Notes under the pieces: generated by a model | The model's database searches: none | What the model was told of the DNA's origin: nothing | Seen by the model: the letters and a program-made list of their open reading frames with translations, nothing else | Position numbers and translations under genes: made by a program | Source of the DNA: Halobacteriales archaeon YIM A00010 | Lineage (GTDB): Archaea; Halobacteriota; Halobacteria; Halobacteriales; Haloarculaceae | Assembly (NCBI GenBank): GCA_025041175.1 | Contig: JAKCFJ010000001.1 | Location: 2,249,526-2,313,525 of the forward strand | Reading direction: 5' to 3' | DNA length: 64,000 bases | Part shown: in pieces, positions 6,683 through 63,574 of the stretch | Layout: every line of letters starts with the position of its first letter | Numbering within the stretch: the stretch's first letter is position 1

Positions 6683-6732
6683 CCCCGGCCTACTCGCTCA
6701 CGGCTTTTGCCGTTCGCTCGTTGAGGCCGGGG
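6683..6732 (-). ncRNA. Candidate 3' scaffold hairpin of the TnpB guide (omega) RNA
   Basis: The last 43 bases of tnpB plus the bases just after it form a strong stem, GGCCGGGG/CCCCGGCC, enclosing a second small hairpin CGGC-TTTT-GCCG at 6701-6712. In TnpB systems the guide RNA is processed from this region and its guide segment is the host DNA immediately beyond the right end, here below position 6682 on the minus strand. The structure is visible; transcription and processing are inferred. Confidence 0.5.
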
Positions 6733-7919
6733 CTTCCTGTTTCTACGACGCGCTTTGCAGGAACCGTGGTGGTCCCCGTAGGGAGCGCAGTCTCCACAGG
6801 CGTACATTCGGAGCGTCCCTCTCCTAACCGCTTAATTCCACGTGAAAGGATGTTCCACGCCGCATTCCAGTCTCTATCCGCGGTGAACCCACACGATGGA
6901 CAGGCGTGCTCGCGGACCCACAGCGATTTATCGGTCTTCACGCCACAAGCAGCGCACTCTTTCGTGGTGTTCCGTGGGTCAACCGGGATGAAATGCGTTC
7001 CTTCCCGTTCGCACTTATACTCAAGCATCCGCAGAAAAGTACCCCATGCAGCGGATGCTCGGTTTCGTGAGTTCGAGTTGAACTGCATCATCCCAGCGAC
7101 GTTCAAATTCTCTACAGCGACGAGATCGTATTCTCGGGCGTAATACGTTGAGAGCTTATGCAAGAAGTCACGACGTTTGCATTTGATAGTGTCGTAACAC
7201 TCTGCCACCCGCTTGCGCTGTTTCTCCCAGTTGTTTGAGCCGTGTTCTTTCCGAGAGAGGGTGCGCTGTTCACGTTTCAGTCGGTCACGTTCGTCGGTGA
7301 GGTCGAGCGACCCAACCGCCGTTCCGTCTGTATCGTGAGTGTATTTGAGAATGCCCACGTCAATGCCGACCGCCTCAGACGGCTCCGTGGGCTTCACGGG
7401 CGGACTATCGGTCGTTTCGAGTTGGAGCGAGACATACCAACGACCGGTGGGTTCACGCTTGACGACGACGCCTTTAACGGTAGCGTTGTCGGGTATATCG
7501 CGGTGGACAACAACGGGTATGTCACCAATCTTGTTAAGATACAACCTATCTTGACCACTCGTTTCCTTGAGCTCGAAGCCGGATTGGTTGTATTCAAAAG
7601 AGTGGTAGTACCCCTTCCCCTTCCATTTTAATTTGCCAACCGTGTGGCCCTTGTCCTTCTTTTTCTTAAGATTGGAGCGGTCGGTATAGAGCCGTCGGAC
7701 GACCATCTGTAGCACTTTCGCATTGACTTTCTGAAGGTCTGTCCACCACTTTTTGAGGTCGGGGAGTCGATTCTGTTCGGGCGTATAACTCGTGTCCGCC
7801 ACGCGGTTCATTCGGTGGAGAAAGTGATTGCGGACTTGCCGACAGATGTCCAATGTCCACGCCAGCCGCTCCTGCTGGTCTGGCGTAGGGTTGAGCCGGT
7901 ACCTGTAGGCGAAGTCCAT
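6690..7919 (-). CDS. tnpB: RNA-guided endonuclease TnpB (IS1341-type transposase accessory protein)
   Basis: The 409-residue protein is full length for TnpB. The N-terminus FAYRYRLNPTPDQQERL is the typical OrfB helix-turn-helix start. RuvC-like catalytic residues are visible as Asp187 (AVGIDVGIL), Glu270 (LVAVENLNVAGM) and Asp350 (ADRDWNAAWNIL). A zinc ribbon, C322-x2-C325 and C340-x2-C343, lies between the last two. All catalytic and metal residues are present, so the protein is probably active. TnpB proteins are known to be guided by an RNA made from the element's 3' end. It follows a DUF2080 gene by six bases. Confidence 0.93.
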   Translation of the reverse strand: MDFAYRYRLNPTPDQQERLAWTLDICRQVRNHFLHRMNRVADTSYTPEQNRLPDLKKWWTDLQKVNAKVLQMVVRRLYTDRSNLKKKKDKGHTVGKLKWKGKGYYHSFEYNQSGFELKETSGQDRLYLNKIGDIPVVVHRDIPDNATVKGVVVKREPTGRWYVSLQLETTDSPPVKPTEPSEAVGIDVGILKYTHDTDGTAVGSLDLTDERDRLKREQRTLSRKEHGSNNWEKQRKRVAECYDTIKCKRRDFLHKLSTYYAREYDLVAVENLNVAGMMQFNSNSRNRASAAWGTFLRMLEYKCEREGTHFIPVDPRNTTKECAACGVKTDKSLWVREHACPSCGFTADRDWNAAWNILSRGIKRLGEGRSECTPVETALPTGTTTVPAKRVVETGSPGLNERTAKAVSE

Positions 7920-7925
7920 GAGGCG

Positions 7926-8078: not shown

Positions 8079-8169
8079 ATGTTACTATATACAAAGCATA
8101 TAGATAAATATGTCGATACGTGGGCCTGTGGGACAGCTATCGAAGATGTTTGAAAACTATGCGGGCATC

Positions 8170-8190
8170 GTCAGAATCGAAGGTTCTGAC
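8170..8190. repeat. Short perfect inverted repeat
   Basis: GTCAGAA at 8170-8176 is complementary to TTCTGAC at 8184-8190, separated by 7 bases. It lies in the non-coding stretch between the DUF2080 gene and the solo element end and could be part of a transposon end hairpin. No further support. Confidence 0.4.
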
Positions 8191-8224
8191 TGCTAACCAG
8201 ACACTTTGTATCTGTGACGGCTGT

Positions 8225-24645: not shown

Positions 24646-24791
24646 ATCTCCGATCTCGCCTCGGTACTCCAGAGGGTCGTCATCGCGGGCGGTGATCAGC
24701 CGCCCGCTCGGTATATCAGTTCTGGAGTTTCGTCACCGGCCTTCGGCCGGTTGCTAACTGAGCAAAGCTCAGTTCACCGGGCGTGTGACCT
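24646..24791 (-). ncRNA. tRNA-Trp intron with box C/D guide RNA
   Basis: Haloarchaeal tRNA-Trp introns are known to act as box C/D guides that 2'-O-methylate their own pre-tRNA. Here box C is GATGACGA (24684-24677), followed by CTCTGGAGT (24674-24666), which pairs with the anticodon loop ACTCCAGAG, then a D-like CCGA (24664-24661). A C'-like GGTGACGA (24737-24730) and CTGA D' boxes are also present. The intron is 146 nt, about 40 longer than the roughly 105 nt known for Haloferax; the excess equals the hairpin pair at 24735-24774. Confidence 0.8.
24735..24774. repeat. Two-hairpin module inside the tRNA-Trp intron
   Basis: Two perfect hairpins with three-base loops are joined by TGCT: ACCGGCC-TTC-GGCCGGT (24735-24751) and AACTGAGC-AAA-GCTCAGTT (24756-24774). 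Stem lengths (7 and 8), loop length and linker match the hairpin arrays found inside cbiZ, cca and the alcohol dehydrogenase gene in this window. The 40-base length accounts for the unusual intron size. Confidence 0.75.
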
Positions 24792-46632: not shown

Positions 46633-47396
46633 ACGTCGAAGACGGTCGCCCGTCGGGTCGTCGTGACGCCGTGTTCGGTTTCTTCGGGTGGTGGCGGCGT
46701 CTCCGCGTATCGTGAGGAGAGGCTCGCACGGACGCTTTCGCGGACGCACGCGCGAGCCGCCGCGCCAACCGTCGTCGCGCTGCCAGCAAACGGACGTTTG
46801 TCACCATCCCGATCGCTGTTGTCGGCCCGTGGCCGACTGCTTGCGGAGCGTTGCTCCGCTCTGCCCGAGGGACTTCGACCCTCGCAGCCGACGACGACGG
46901 CGTCGGTCGTGGTTCCGGTAACGCCCGCCACGGCCAGCAGCGTTGCGGTTTTGGCCTCGACAACAGCCCCGAGCAGCGTTGCGAGTGCGCCGTCGGTGAG
47001 CGGCTGGGACGTGGTGAGGACGACGTTGACGGTGCCAGGGCGAAACTCCGTGTTCGTCTCACAAGACGAGGGCGACGCTGCTGGCGGATCCATCGGAAGC
47101 GTTGCCGGGTTCGATATCCCGGCAGTCGTGACGGCTTCGACGGGTCCACAGCGCGCGCCACGGGCATGTCGAAGCTCGACCCCGGTGAACAGCGTTGGGC
47201 CGCCCGTGTCGAAGCCCGCTCGCTCGCGCCGGCGTTTCCCGTACGCATCCAGATCCACGTGTTCCCACTCCTCGGGCACGGAAACGTTGTACACCGACGG
47301 ATCGGTGTGGTAGCCGCCCCGCCACCCACTCGAGAGCCAGCGCGTGCCGGGACGGCGGTACTGGAGCACGCCGTCGCGCACGGTGATCTCAGACAT
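46629..47396 (-). CDS. cbiZ: Adenosylcobinamide amidohydrolase CbiZ
   Basis: The start at ATG 47396 (MSEITVRDGVLQYRRPGTRW) gives 255 residues. CbiZ removes the aminopropanol side chain of adenosylcobinamide to salvage it as adenosylcobyric acid. Family blocks are RWLSSGWRGGYH, PTLFTGVELRHARG, NVVLTTSQPLTDGALATLLG and EAKTATLLAVAGVTGTTTDA. Residues 171-192 are encoded by a three-hairpin repeat array inserted in frame, after which the conserved FAGSATTVGAAARACVRESV resumes. It overlaps cobD by eight bases and is the last gene of the cobalamin operon. Confidence 0.92.
   Translation of the reverse strand: MSEITVRDGVLQYRRPGTRWLSSGWRGGYHTDPSVYNVSVPEEWEHVDLDAYGKRRRERAGFDTGGPTLFTGVELRHARGARCGPVEAVTTAGISNPATLPMDPPAASPSSCETNTEFRPGTVNVVLTTSQPLTDGALATLLGAVVEAKTATLLAVAGVTGTTTDAVVVGCEGRSPSGRAEQRSASSRPRADNSDRDGDKRPFAGSATTVGAAARACVRESVRASLSSRYAETPPPPEETEHGVTTTRRATVFDV
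46821..46884. repeat. Three-hairpin array inside cbiZ
   Basis: Hairpins on the plus strand: GTCGGCC-CGT-GGCCGAC (46821-46837), GCGGAGC-GTT-GCTCCGC (46843-46859) and CGAGGG-ACTTCGA-CCCTCG (46866-46884), joined by TGCTT and TCTGCC. Start-to-start spacing is 22-23 bases. The array encodes cbiZ residues 171-192 without breaking the frame. Stems and linkers are of the same kind as in cca, the alcohol dehydrogenase gene and the tRNA-Trp intron. Confidence 0.85.
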
Positions 47397-52726: not shown

Positions 52727-53395
52727 CTACCGCTGTTCGCGACTGATTCGTTCGAGCGCGTCAGTGACGATCGTTTCGGGATCGGTGTCGTTGATGGCAG
52801 CCACACGCCGGAGTTCGAGATACGTTTCCGGCGGGATCGAAAGCGTGAGCCGGCCGAGTTCGATCTCCCGGTCTTCGAGCGCTCCGTCAATCGATTGGCC
52901 ATTGTTCACGTCGCTCGCGATCGCCCGGACCTCCCGCACGGTCAGATCGTGATCGAGCACAGCCCACGCGAGCTGGTATCTGGTCTCCCCGTGAACGCGG
53001 GCGATGTGTTTGGCCGCAGTCGGCGCGATCCGGCCCGTGGCGACGTATTTGCGCACCGGCCGCGGGAGGTCGTGAACGCGCGCCCACTTCCGGATGAACG
53101 AGATCGTCGCCTCACCGCTCGCGCGTTCGGCCGCGCTCTTGTACGATCCTTCGCCCCGGACCAACGCGGCACACGCAGCCGCACCGCGAAGCATGTAGAT
53201 GTTGTCCTCGGCCCCGGCCGTGTTGTCTGCGAACGCGCGCACCGTTTTGGCCGCCTCCGAAAGACTGTCGGGATCCGACGGATCGAACTGGACCGCTTGT
53301 GGAGCGCGTTCGCCCGCCAACTCCGGATTGCCACGAATCACTGGCTGTCCGACTGGAGATTCGCGGTCAGTCGGCGGTGGATTATTACTCATCAC
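52727..53395 (-). CDS. ParB-like HTH protein with C-terminal RHH-type segment (DUF7119-like)
   Basis: The 222-residue protein has a disordered N-terminus, then a conserved domain including NIYMLRGAAACAALVRGEGS, FIRKWARVHDLPRPVRKYVA and GRIAPTAAKHIARVHGETRY, followed by LDHDLTVREVRAIASDV. The G-x-I...A-x-x-IA-RV pattern resembles the helix-turn-helix of ParB/KorB proteins. The end, LTLSIPPETYLELRRVAAIN then DTDPETIVTDALERI, looks like a ribbon-helix-helix. It is conserved in haloarchaea, I believe as DUF7119. No parA or parS-like sites are nearby. Confidence 0.75.
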   Translation of the reverse strand: MMSNNPPPTDRESPVGQPVIRGNPELAGERAPQAVQFDPSDPDSLSEAAKTVRAFADNTAGAEDNIYMLRGAAACAALVRGEGSYKSAAERASGEATISFIRKWARVHDLPRPVRKYVATGRIAPTAAKHIARVHGETRYQLAWAVLDHDLTVREVRAIASDVNNGQSIDGALEDREIELGRLTLSIPPETYLELRRVAAINDTDPETIVTDALERISREQR

Positions 53396-53964: not shown

Positions 53965-54209
53965 CGGAAGCTCACCTCAACCGCATCCGCGTAGAGTTCC
54001 GGCGCGACATCTGCCGATGCGTGCTGGCGCACACCATTCAGTTCCGCGTCTGTCATCACTCCTCTTACGACGCTATCATGTATAAGCCCGTGCCACTCTG
54101 TAAGGCTGGCCCGTACTATTGGCTGTGAGAAAGATTTGCCGGTAGCTGGGTCGACGTATATCAGATAATCTACGTTCAGTCTTGCGATTACGCCCCATTG
54201 AAGCGTCAT
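53961..54209 (-). CDS. Conserved small protein, 82 aa, first gene of a two-gene operon
   Basis: The frame opens at GTG 54212 or ATG 54209 (MTLQWGVIARLNVDYLIYVD) and continues PATGKSFSQPIVRASLTEWH, DAELNGVRQHASADVAPELY and DAVEVSFR. It overlaps the downstream 57-residue gene by four bases. No family is recognised. A 14-base direct repeat (54209-54222) that flanks the large hairpin array begins right at its start codon, so the array sits in its promoter region. Confidence 0.65.
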   Translation of the reverse strand: MTLQWGVIARLNVDYLIYVDPATGKSFSQPIVRASLTEWHGLIHDSVVRGVMTDAELNGVRQHASADVAPELYADAVEVSFR

Positions 54210-54225
54210 CACGATCGGTGACGTT

Positions 54226-54441
54226 CATCAGACCGCTGGTCTGATGAGCCAGCTAGAATCCGAAGGATTCTGGGGACGTTCGAAAGACGGAGAGCGTCTT
54301 TCGAGCCAGCCGGAACTCGGAGAGTTCCGGCGACGTTGACGAGACGCGAAGCGTCTCGTTCGCACACCAGAAGCCGAAGGCTTCTGGGGACGTTCGCAAG
54401 ACCGGAGGTCTTGCGTGCCAACCAGAACCCACAAGGTTCTG
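54226..54441. repeat. Eight-hairpin array with ~28-nt spacing
   Basis: Eight hairpins follow each other, all with different stems: CATCAGACC-GCT- (54226-54246), AGAATCC-GAA- (54255-54271), CGAAAGACG-GAGAG- (54281-54303), CCGGAACTC-GGA- (54310-54330), ACGAGACGC-GAA- (54339-54359), CCAGAAGCC-GAA- (54367-54387), CGCAAGACC-GGA- (54395-54415) and CAGAACC-CACAA- (54423-54441), each closed by its exact complement. Linkers alternate between GACGTT and GCCA[AG]C types. The whole is flanked by direct repeats TCACGATCGGTGAC (54209-54222) and TCACGATCGGTAAC (54442-54455). It is not a CRISPR: there is no common repeat. Confidence 0.85.
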
Positions 54442-54504
54442 TCACGATCGGTAACCGTCACCCGGATCGCTGGGGTTACTATCGTTGAGGCAAAGGATCT
54501 AGCC

Positions 54505-60004: not shown

Positions 60005-61429
60005 CTACGGTTTCGGGTCGAAATAGCGGGCGAACTCGGTTCCGAACTCCTCGGCGAGCGTTGCTGTGTCCTCACCGATCAGTATCTCGTGCTTCTCGCG
60101 GAGCGCGTCCTCGACGTCTCCACCGAGCGCGACCGAAAACAGCCGTTCTTCGAGCACCGAGCGGGCGTTCGTGAGTTCTCGGGGGCGCTCGACCACGTAC
60201 CGGTTCCCGTCGATGAACGGGCCGTACACCTCGCTATCGCCGGAACGCTCGTCGTTCCAGTTGCCCGAGGGACTCTGTCCCTCCCTGCCCAAGGCGCGTT
60301 GCTCCTCTCTGTCAGCGTACTTCTCGTAGAAGCCGCTCGCGTGCTCGCCGGCGTCAACGGGCGGACCGATGTGGCGTTCGACCGCCGGACGGTCGGAGAC
60401 CTCACACTCGACGAACAACACGGCGCGCTCGTCTGCGAACGTGGCGGCCCGGATGGGATCGAAGCCGCGCCGGTCAAGTTCGTCCCGCAGCCCCCGGAGC
60501 GACCGGTCGAGCTGGGGGTACAGCTGGTCGTCCACGAGATCGGGCGCGTCGAACCGCACCGCAACCGGCGTCGTCTCGCGGCGATCGAGCTGAGCGCGCA
60601 TCTCCTCGCGGGAGAGCGGGTCGGGATCGTCCGACACGAACCGGTCGGTGGTTGGATCGTCCCGGAACGCCTGCGCGTGGTGGAGCAGCCGGGCGACGTT
60701 CGTCTCCGAGCAGACCGCAGCGACGTTTCGCTGGGGATCCGTGGGATCGATCACGACAAGCGGCGCGTCGAACGAGTGCTCACCGTGATTCTCGGGATCG
60801 ATCCGGACGGGTAACTGCCACTGGGCGACCGAATCGACGAACGACCGGAAACAGCCGTATTCGAGCACGAGCAGCTCGGTCAGGTAGCCCGAGAACCCCC
60901 GAGTCCTGAGATCGCTGCCGTAGACGCCGATCCCCTTCAGAAAGCCCTTGGCGAGTCGAATTGCCCCCGCACGCTCGGGATCGAGACGGGCGGCGACGTA
61001 CTCGGTGTGAAACGGCGTTCGATCGACCGCCGATTGGATCGCGCTCGCGCTCTCGACCGCGAAGCAGGGCACGACGTCCACCGCGAACCCCGAGCGCTCG
61101 CCCGTCACGTAGGGGTGTTCCGCGAACTCCTCGCGGCCCTCGGGAAGCACCTCCCACCCGACCTGCAAGCCGTGCTGTTCGAGCTGCTCGCGCGAAAGAT
61201 CTGGGGGAAACCGAACGAACACGTCGATGTCCCGGTCACCGCTGGTCCACGTGCCCCGGGCGGTCGAGCCGACCTGTAACACGTCGGCCGAAACGGGAAG
61301 CTCCTCGACAGCAGCCTCCGCGCGCGCGATGAGCGTCTCTGCGACCTCCCGCAGCCGCTCCTGTTCGGTCGGATCGGGATCGACGCGCGAACGAACCCGA
61401 TCGGTGACCGCATCGAACGCATCGCTCAT
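60005..61429 (-). CDS. cca: CCA-adding tRNA nucleotidyltransferase (archaeal class I)
   Basis: The 474-residue protein adds and repairs the 3' CCA of tRNAs. Class I archaeal features are seen: VLQVGSTARGTWTSGDRDID with the catalytic D-x-D in DRDIDVFVRF, GFAVDVVPCFAVESASAIQS with the third Asp, RLAKGFLKGIGVYGSDLRTR and FSGYLTELLVLEYGCF. Residues about 375-388 come from an in-frame hairpin insertion (EEQRALGREGQSPSG), after which VYGPFIDGNRYVVERPREL resumes. It is divergent from tRNA-Asn. Confidence 0.95.
   Translation of the reverse strand: MSDAFDAVTDRVRSRVDPDPTEQERLREVAETLIARAEAAVEELPVSADVLQVGSTARGTWTSGDRDIDVFVRFPPDLSREQLEQHGLQVGWEVLPEGREEFAEHPYVTGERSGFAVDVVPCFAVESASAIQSAVDRTPFHTEYVAARLDPERAGAIRLAKGFLKGIGVYGSDLRTRGFSGYLTELLVLEYGCFRSFVDSVAQWQLPVRIDPENHGEHSFDAPLVVIDPTDPQRNVAAVCSETNVARLLHHAQAFRDDPTTDRFVSDDPDPLSREEMRAQLDRRETTPVAVRFDAPDLVDDQLYPQLDRSLRGLRDELDRRGFDPIRAATFADERAVLFVECEVSDRPAVERHIGPPVDAGEHASGFYEKYADREEQRALGREGQSPSGNWNDERSGDSEVYGPFIDGNRYVVERPRELTNARSVLEERLFSVALGGDVEDALREKHEILIGEDTATLAEEFGTEFARYFDPKP
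60267..60306. repeat. Two-hairpin array inside cca
   Basis: GAGGGAC-TCT-GTCCCTC (60267-60283) is perfect; AGGCGC-GTT-GCTCCT (60292-60306) has one mismatch. They are joined by CCTGCCC and spaced 25 bases start to start. The second resembles GAGGCGC-GTT-GCGCCTC in the alcohol dehydrogenase array, one step diverged. The insertion falls between the conserved blocks FYEKYAD and VYGPFIDG of the protein. Confidence 0.8.
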
Positions 61430-62299: not shown

Positions 62300-63574
62300 T
62301 CACCACGCGCTTTCGAGAACCCCCTCGATCTCCGTCTCTGTCGGATCGAATCCGTCAGGTGTGTTCCCCAGCAGGCTGTCGGCAGCCACTGCCCCGGCGA
62401 CCGCCGGGAGATCATCGTTCGAAAGATCCGGGATCGAACGGAGCCGCGATGGAAGACCGAGCGCATCGCGGATCTCGGTTACCGCGTCGATGACCGCCGT
62501 TGCAGTCGCTGCGCTCGATTCGACGCCGAGCGCCTCGGCCAGTTCCTCGCGCCGGCCGTCGACCCGATCGAACAGGAACGCGAGCGCGTGGGGCGCGATG
62601 ATGCCGTGGGCCTCGCCCTGCTGTACGTCGTAGCCGCCGGAAATGCCGTGGCCGAACGCGTGGATGAGCGAGAGTGTCGTCACCGGGCTGCGCCCGGCTG
62701 TCGTCGGGCCACGCCCGACTGCCCGAGGAGCTTCGCTCTTCCCTGCCTGAGGCGCGTTGCGCCTCTCTGTCCTGCTGCCCCGCGAAACGCCGTACTGAAC
62801 TAGCATCGTGCCTACGATCACATCGTGTAACGTCCGATCGTCCCGCGCTCCGGATCCGAGTCGGGGAAGCCCCTCCGCGAGCGATTCCAGCCCACGCGTT
62901 GCCGTCGCGTCCGTGATGGGGGTTCTGTTGTGGGCGTACAGCGACTCGATCCCCTTATCGAAGCCGTTCATCGCGGAGGCACACAGGACCTCGTGTGGCG
63001 TCGTCTCGATCAGCGACGGGTCGTACACGAGCGCTTCGGGCATGAGCCGTTGGTCGAACACGCCGCCCCGGACCGGTGGCCGATCGTCCGGATAGGCAGT
63101 GATCCCGGCGGCGACAGAGAGATCCGCACCCGCCAACGTGGTCGGCACCGCGAACACGGGCACCAGCTCCGTTTCCGGAACGGGAAGCGTCCCCGTCTCC
63201 ACGAACGCGGATCGGATGGTCTCCCGTGGGCGGTCGTCGGCCGCGAGCACGCTCATGACCGTCGCTACGTCGAGGCTGCTCCCTCCACCGAGGCTCACCA
63301 GCGCGTCGACCTCGCTCGCACGCTCCACGCCATCGAGTGCCGTCTCCAACCGCTTTTGGGGCGTCGTCTCCGCAAACACGCCGGTGAGCCGGTCGCCCAC
63401 CCCTTCACGGACCGGCTCGACGACCGCCGGTGTTTGGCCGACCGTCGTCCCGGTGACGAGGAGCGCGCGCTCGACACCACGCTGTGCGAGTTCCGTTCCC
63501 AACGCTCCAGCGCTGTCGCGGCCGTACAGGATCGTCCCCGGCTCGTACTCGAACCCGAACGAATCGACTGTCAT
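62300..63574 (-). CDS. Iron-containing alcohol dehydrogenase with in-frame insertion
   Basis: The start at ATG 63574 (MTVDSFGFEYEPGTILYGRD) gives 424 residues, somewhat longer than the usual 385-400. Type III ADH features: ALVSLGGGSSLDVATVMSVL (GGGS-x2-D NAD site), VFAVPTTLAGADLSVAAGIT, and metal ligands in MNGFDKGIE and the HAFGHGISGGYDVQQGEAHG segment. Residues about 270-298 (RNAPQAGKSEAPRAVGRGPT) are encoded by a four-hairpin array and have no counterpart in the family; TTLSLIHAFGHG resumes directly after. The alcohol substrate is unknown. Confidence 0.9.
   Translation of the reverse strand: MTVDSFGFEYEPGTILYGRDSAGALGTELAQRGVERALLVTGTTVGQTPAVVEPVREGVGDRLTGVFAETTPQKRLETALDGVERASEVDALVSLGGGSSLDVATVMSVLAADDRPRETIRSAFVETGTLPVPETELVPVFAVPTTLAGADLSVAAGITAYPDDRPPVRGGVFDQRLMPEALVYDPSLIETTPHEVLCASAMNGFDKGIESLYAHNRTPITDATATRGLESLAEGLPRLGSGARDDRTLHDVIVGTMLVQYGVSRGSRTERRNAPQAGKSEAPRAVGRGPTTAGRSPVTTLSLIHAFGHGISGGYDVQQGEAHGIIAPHALAFLFDRVDGRREELAEALGVESSAATATAVIDAVTEIRDALGLPSRLRSIPDLSNDDLPAVAGAVAADSLLGNTPDGFDPTETEIEGVLESAW
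62683..62765. repeat. Four-hairpin array inside the iron alcohol dehydrogenase gene
   Basis: In order: CCGGGC-TGC-GCCCGG (62683-62697), GTCGGGC-CAC-GCCCGAC (62703-62719), GAGGAGC-TTC-GCTCTTC (62725-62741, one wobble) and GAGGCGC-GTT-GCGCCTC (62749-62765). Linkers are CTGTC, TGCC and CCTGCC. Spacing is 20-24 bases. The reading frame is kept through the array and conserved ADH sequence resumes on both sides. Confidence 0.87.

Follow-up and report, generated by a model that had tools for sequence, protein, structure and literature searches.

A haloarchaeal array of perfect hairpins that probably consists of four copies of a small REP/BIME-like mobile unit

Results

Eight perfect hairpins form four double-hairpin units between two small genes

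In the window (the whole 64-kb stretch of DNA analysed here) eight successive hairpins with perfect stems lie at 54225-54441, between two small divergent genes, as the preliminary description had stated. A gene at 52727-53395 on the minus strand, upstream of one of these small genes, encodes a DUF7119 protein with a ParB-type HTH domain. The hairpins occupy positions 54225-54247, 54255-54271, 54280-54304, 54309-54331, 54339-54359, 54367-54387, 54395-54415 and 54423-54441. Their stems measure 7-10 bp, where 7-9 bp had been given, and the start-to-start spacing ranges from 25 to 30 nt around the proposed pitch of ~28 nt. The loops, described as mostly GAA or GGA, are so in five of the eight hairpins; in order from 1 to 8 they read GCT, GAA, GAGAG, GGA, GAA, GAA, GGA and CACAA. 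The linkers alternate as originally described. Single-strand folding of the array is far stronger than that of shuffled sequence on both strands (z = -10.1 on the plus strand and -8.5 on the minus strand), with no shuffle folding equally well on either. The window holds 42 perfect hairpins of this grade, eight of them within these 217 nt. An Rfam search with the array gave no match to any curated family, and a search of phage records with it gave none either.

The hairpins fall into four pairs (1+2, 3+4, 5+6 and 7+8), each of which forms a double-hairpin unit that ends in CG on the plus strand; the orientation of the units, CGTC...AA, is that of the minus strand. The unit of hairpins 1+2 (54224..54278, 55 nt) is matched by the covariance model R1 at E=6e-13, its boundaries being set at the CG before each TT. 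Hairpins 3+4 form a unit of 57 nt (54279..54335), which is supported by the 57-nt direct repeat D1. The unit of hairpins 5+6 (54336..54392, 57 nt; R1 E=9e-24) is the version conserved across the class, and plasmids from many haloarchaeal genera contain matches to this central part of the array (54331-54394). The last unit, of hairpins 7+8 (54393..54446, 54 nt), matches the model weakly (E=7e-4) and has a degenerate end, TCACG in place of GGACG. Comparison with the empty site of a congener (G003, locus L048) delimits the whole inserted array as 54224..54446, that is, four head-to-tail units on the minus strand in 223 nt.

Hairpin pairs and short arrays of different families also occur in the window, at 24735-24774, 46821-46859, 60242-60283 and 62683-62765; their linkers are TGCT or TGCC and their stems of the GTCGGGC-, ACCGGCC- and GAGGGAC-type. 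A unit that is probably decayed (model E = 0.0015) is found at 8164-8222; it lies upstream of a tnpB gene (~6690-7925, minus strand), at a distance of ~240 nt.

The flanking direct repeat is not a target duplication

The array is flanked by a direct repeat matching at 13 of 14 positions (54209-54222 and 54442-54455), which had been noticed before and read as a target duplication. The repeat is real and the reading does not hold, because the right copy is composed of the unit end TCACG followed by native sequence, ATCGGTAAC, and the left copy belongs to a native imperfect stem-loop (GTCATC...GGTGAC, 54205..54222) that adjoins the insertion point. The same stem-loop is found with other loops and without the array in three related loci (L046, L047 and L048), and the native part of the right copy reads GACGATCGGTAACC in one congener (G005) and GACGAGCGGTAACC in another (G003). 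We rejected a 14-bp target-site duplication on the basis of this native stem-loop of the relatives and the pairs of occupied and empty sites described below. The loop of the left stem-loop may have become similar to the right flank by conversion.

Base pairing is preserved while the stem sequences change

Written on the minus strand of the window, the unit consists of CGTC, a hairpin B, a linker (TGTGCGA, TGGC, TGCTA and others), a hairpin A and a final AA; it measures 55-60 nt in general and 54-57 nt at this locus. Of 212 clustered hairpins, 76 have a YGTC tag 0-2 nt from the foot, or about one per pair, against a background of 4.5%. The stems include sequences such as CCAGAAATC and GTCGGGC, and the loop is 3 nt long in 186/222 hairpins.

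The proposal that structure rather than sequence is kept is borne out by covariation and by the complementarity of the free stem tips. In an alignment of 22 copies, which were gathered by sequence similarity and not by pairing, 95.9% of the cells are paired, as opposed to at most 49% in controls with slid partners, and there are 27 double changes where shuffles give 7.7. A second set of 81 copies was found with a pattern that leaves two tip pairs free and hairpin A wholly unspecified; the free tip dinucleotides are complementary in 79 of them (~5 expected), and hairpin A pairs at 8 or 9 of its 9 positions in 66. The two orientations of a loop (GAA/TTC, GGA/TCC, GTA/TAC) are about equally frequent, which suggests hairpin inversion or template switching. 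At four sites of one genome (L086-L089, ~1478-1522) with similar flanks, the same pair, GCCGAGC and ACCAGAAATC separated by tgcta, stands between TGTC boundaries, with the loops flipped in some of the copies.

The unit is spread through the haloarchaeal class

Similar arrays, whose absence elsewhere would have counted against the preliminary reading, are common. A DNA search of the organism's own genome (5.97 Mb, 7 contigs) returned 54 similar places, and its other contigs carry arrays of 3 to ~10 hairpins that share individual hairpins in shuffled order. A covariance search of archaeal genomes had been suggested, and a model of one double-hairpin unit built from the 22 copies finds matches in 268 of 292 genomes of haloarchaea, which represent 74 of 77 genera. 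As at most 18 candidates were scored per genome (35 in the phylum sample below), genome-wide copy numbers are lower bounds throughout. In a sample of 148 genomes of the phylum, matches outside the class are confined to three genomes of one family and have weak E-values. Among the matches listed in an exact-pattern scan of 84,980 species genomes, all 80 with titles are haloarchaea.

Long arrays occur elsewhere, with eight hairpins at L255 and with 6, 15 and 10 at L324-L326, which belong to one small genome. This genome (G027, L324-L327, ~1.9 Mb) carries units very densely, including the 15-hairpin array and a stack of five units in one of its IS200/IS605 left ends, in mixed orientation. A Haloquadratum genome also has the unit (25 loci examined, 38 matches at E<=0.1, several of them decayed), again in IS605-type ends.

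Units are inserted immediately 5' of CG and stack at single sites

The unit is discrete, and its boundaries are given by empty sites, which were sought by joining the flanks of units and aligning occupied with empty sequences. All movement is inferred from comparisons between species and not between strains of one species. At the window locus the occupied site reads GGTTACCGAT/223 nt/CGTCACC and the empty site of G003 (L048) reads GGTTACCGCT/CGTCACC; the empty site of a further congener (G002) is identical to that of G003, and both count as one case. Further pairs come from tnpB genes or their 3' regions: TATCGC/57/CGCCATCCGTGG and TATCGC/CGCCATCCGTGG in a tnpB 3' region, GAAACAG/56/CGCAAACG and GAAACAG/CGCAAGCG in tnpB, and GAATCAA/60/CGCCTGT and GAATCAA/CGCCTGT at a second tnpB 3' site. 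At the DLGVNSL site of tnpB the pair is CTGTTCA/55/CGCCGAGG and CTGTTGA/CGCCGAGG, and in an IS200/IS605 left end it is CACGCC/57/CGCCGTGAACGG and CACGCC/CGGCGTGAACGCC. At these six independent sites the unit lies immediately 5' of CG, and CG thus stands at both ends of the unit; as CG makes up 12.7% of the dinucleotides of the window, six of six would arise by chance with a probability of ~4e-6. No longer target duplication is present at the six sites. A seventh pair, in the loop of a right-end hairpin (L097 and L149), is similar but less exact.

The 55- and 56-nt insertions break tnpB reading frames. We had considered in-frame intragenic insertion and rejected it, the tnpB frame being broken in L148.

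Homologous sites differ in the number of units they hold. One IS left end has none in L153, one in L054 and L174, two in L055 (114 nt) and five in L326, and the second tnpB 3' site has none in L146, one in L165 and two in L327. The window array, with four units where G003 has none, fits this pattern of stacking. Two further congeners (G005 and G004) carry ~56 nt or more of other sequence at the window insertion point, in which the unit model recognised no unit; that this is a decayed unit is a guess.

Several arrays (L010, L011, L013 and L021) stop at a shared position in decayed genes for IS6-family transposases, AACG/CTATCGAC ('AIDPETN'). The idea that arrays aim at this one point was discarded, for the junctions also read AACG/CTATCGA and so are covered by the CG rule; they are left out of the six sites because an intact empty copy was not aligned. 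In a unit of another family (L028:2574-2620, compared with L140) the tag is CTTC and the insertion lies at CTTC (GACGG/CTTC...CA/CTTCGAC), which suggests that tag and target co-vary among families.

Units are concentrated at IS200/IS605 elements

The preliminary description had raised the possibility of a larger relative of intragenic hairpin elements, and units do occur inside tnpB genes and at their ends. Of 81 units from titled genomes, 43 are situated within TnpA/TnpB homology or no more than 400 nt away from it, compared with 11.6% for random positions on the same contigs. Among the best matches listed, the distance to a Y1 TnpA gene is 125-190 nt for at least eight units, where 0.06 would be expected within 600 nt, and these units occur in both relative orientations. 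Pfam searches identified TnpA (PF01797) and TnpB (PF07282) at L054 and an IS240/IS6-type DDE transposase at L052.

Across whole genomes, units and Y1 transposase occur together only to a moderate degree. Y1_Tnp, counted with the RAYT subgroups together, is found in 202 of 292 genomes and the unit in 268; the transposase is scarcer in genomes without units, with 8/20 among those listed against ~194/268 (Fisher p = 0.004). No Y1 transposase was found in the congeners G001 and G003, though they have at least 11 and at least 2 units, respectively.

The end hairpins of the IS elements themselves have TTCA or TTTA loops and are unlike those of the unit, so that it is not evident that this TnpA would recognise the unit. 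Homologous IS ends also exist without a unit (L153, L152, L149, L150 and L146), and on this ground we rejected the notion that the unit hairpins are native to the left ends of IS200/IS605 elements. The 3' ends of tnpB in L136, L137, L139, L141, L146 and L152 bear double hairpins very like the mobile units; these right ends, in which guide RNAs are encoded, belong to several distinct tnpB groups.

Discussion

Consideration of the unit structure, its insertion sites and its distribution leads us to propose that the array probably represents four head-to-tail copies of a small, gene-less, REP/BIME-like mobile unit of haloarchaea. The CG at which an older unit ends could serve as the target of a new one, and tandem arrays could build up in this way, in the manner of BIMEs. 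Units gather above all in and next to the palindromic ends of IS200/IS605 elements and within the tnpB genes of these elements. By analogy, the unit may move as single-stranded hairpin DNA through a Y1 HUH-type transposase that acts in trans and cuts at CG; the CG at both unit ends can be likened to the cutting of TnpA_REP at CT beside REP hairpins. The enzyme could be the TnpA of IS200/IS605, a relative of it or something else, and no cognate enzyme was identified among the genomes examined. Stem tips and loops may be renewed by template switching or hairpin inversion. Between the two small divergent genes of the window locus, the array probably rides along as a neutral passenger.

Hairpin clusters could also arise and spread without any transposase, through slippage during replication, template switching and gene conversion among copies already present. 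This would account for several features of the data: loops about equally frequent in both orientations, stem tips that are exchanged in matched blocks and rarely seen in intermediate states, arrays that share hairpins in shuffled order, and the absence of Y1 transposases from some unit-bearing genomes. Slippage and conversion alone, however, leave unexplained the exact insertions of 55-60 nt at CG in unrelated host sequence, and we consider this explanation unlikely. Loss of the transposase genes might also have left the array behind as what remains of IS200/IS605 ends, PATE-like or terminal-only, since in many genomes units do occupy the left or the right end of such an element. Against this stand the homologous ends without a unit, the differences between native end palindromes and unit hairpins, the occurrence of units in either orientation relative to TnpA and a window site devoid of IS-end sequence, and we already disfavour this improbable origin.

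Two further possibilities arise from the locus itself. The very strong folding, the kept base pairing and the position between two small genes, with flanks conserved in congeners, would suit a functional structured RNA or a protein-binding array that controls these genes, as the preliminary description had suggested. Congeners have the same two small genes without the array, however, and the same units are dispersed throughout the class at many unrelated places, including the inside of tnpB genes; together with the empty Rfam result this makes a role specific to the locus very improbable. A decayed coding repeat, for which one could cite three minus-strand frames that are all open across most of the array, has next to no likelihood: the arms hold few stop codons in any frame, unit lengths (54-57 nt here, 55-60 nt elsewhere) ignore multiples of three, and the longest frame has no Pfam match. 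On these lengths, the broken tnpB frames and the absent Pfam match we rejected it.

The reading of the array as stacked copies of a mobile unit can be extended, speculatively, to a class-wide hairpin-only mobile system with several tag families (CGTC, TGTC, CTTC and others). Such a system might be moved by a dedicated, putative single-stranded DNA recombinase with dinucleotide target specificity, and it might parasitise or disable IS200/IS605 transposons by stacking in their ends, tnpB genes and guide-RNA regions. We regard this as possible but not probable.

The closest published element to the unit is SMR-A of Haloquadratum walsbyi (HqIRS42, HqIRS43 and HqIRS55; PMC3119063), whose "mechanism of mobilization remains enigmatic" (PMC3119063). 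Like the unit, SMR-A is haloarchaeal, lacks a transposase, makes no target duplication and lies in near-terminal palindromes of IS605-type elements (PMC3119063). It differs in being ~110 bp long with prominent terminal inverted repeats (PMC3119063), whereas the unit, of 55-60 nt, contains a pair of internal hairpins and lacks terminal inverted repeats; unlike SMR-A as described, the unit targets CG, occurs also outside IS elements and forms long arrays. Some overlap between the unit and SMR-A is possible, and two tandem units measure 114 nt. The PATEs of haloarchaea are likewise gene-less and hairpin-bearing and make no target duplication, but their own ends bear near-terminal palindromes of the IS605 type (PMC3119063); the unit has none of these and is inserted into them, its ends being CGTC and AA with the native IS palindromes outside. 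A further comparison is with the left and right ends of IS200/IS605 elements and the TnpB omega RNA: units occupy these ends, and in several tnpB groups the right-end hairpins are similar to the unit, yet homologous ends also occur without it.

The bacterial REP, BIME and REPIN sequences share with the unit short, dispersed, perfect palindromes with small loops, a tetranucleotide at the foot and mosaic arrays. TnpA_REP cleaves at a CT that lies 5' or 3' of a REP hairpin, with the foot tetranucleotide helping to choose the site (PMC8266576), and dinucleotides of the cleavage type at both ends are common to the unit (CG) and to the TnpA_REP/REP system (CT) (PMC8266576). In contrast to bacterial REP, with its GTAG, the unit has a CGTC or TGTC tag, is a pair of different hairpins and lies inside genes and IS ends; a RAYT-type gene was not identified for it, Y1_Tnp having been counted without a split by RAYT subgroup, and only the IS200-type subclass of Y1 has been reported from archaea (PMC6006769). 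The CGTC-tagged REP superfamily resembles the unit in its tag, with TGTC variants at one foot, in its stems of 8-9 bp and in having members inside genes (PMC3733652). Its loops of 4-5 nt, A/T first stem pairs, CCA tail and bacterial hosts (PMC3733652) differ from the unit, which has loops mostly of 3 nt, stem feet mostly of C/G and TG tails.

In our literature search the unit was not described beyond SMR-A and PATEs, an absence that is not proof that no description exists. In the literature searched, haloarchaeal counterparts of REP are limited to the Haloquadratum repeats, and REP-type repeats defined by structure, tag and target are bacterial; RepRanger counts archaeal palindromes generically (PMC12306157). 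We regard the unit as a novel variant among REP/SMR-like mobile palindromes, belonging to neither of the two groups.

With the unit described here, many odd runs of hairpins in the genomes of haloarchaea find an explanation, as do those at IS200/IS605 ends, including the stretch in which TnpB guide RNAs are encoded. With a unit of 57 nt that has exact ends, a CG target and empty sites, and that is present in more than 90% of the sampled haloarchaeal genomes, the question of how such palindromes are mobilised becomes directly testable.
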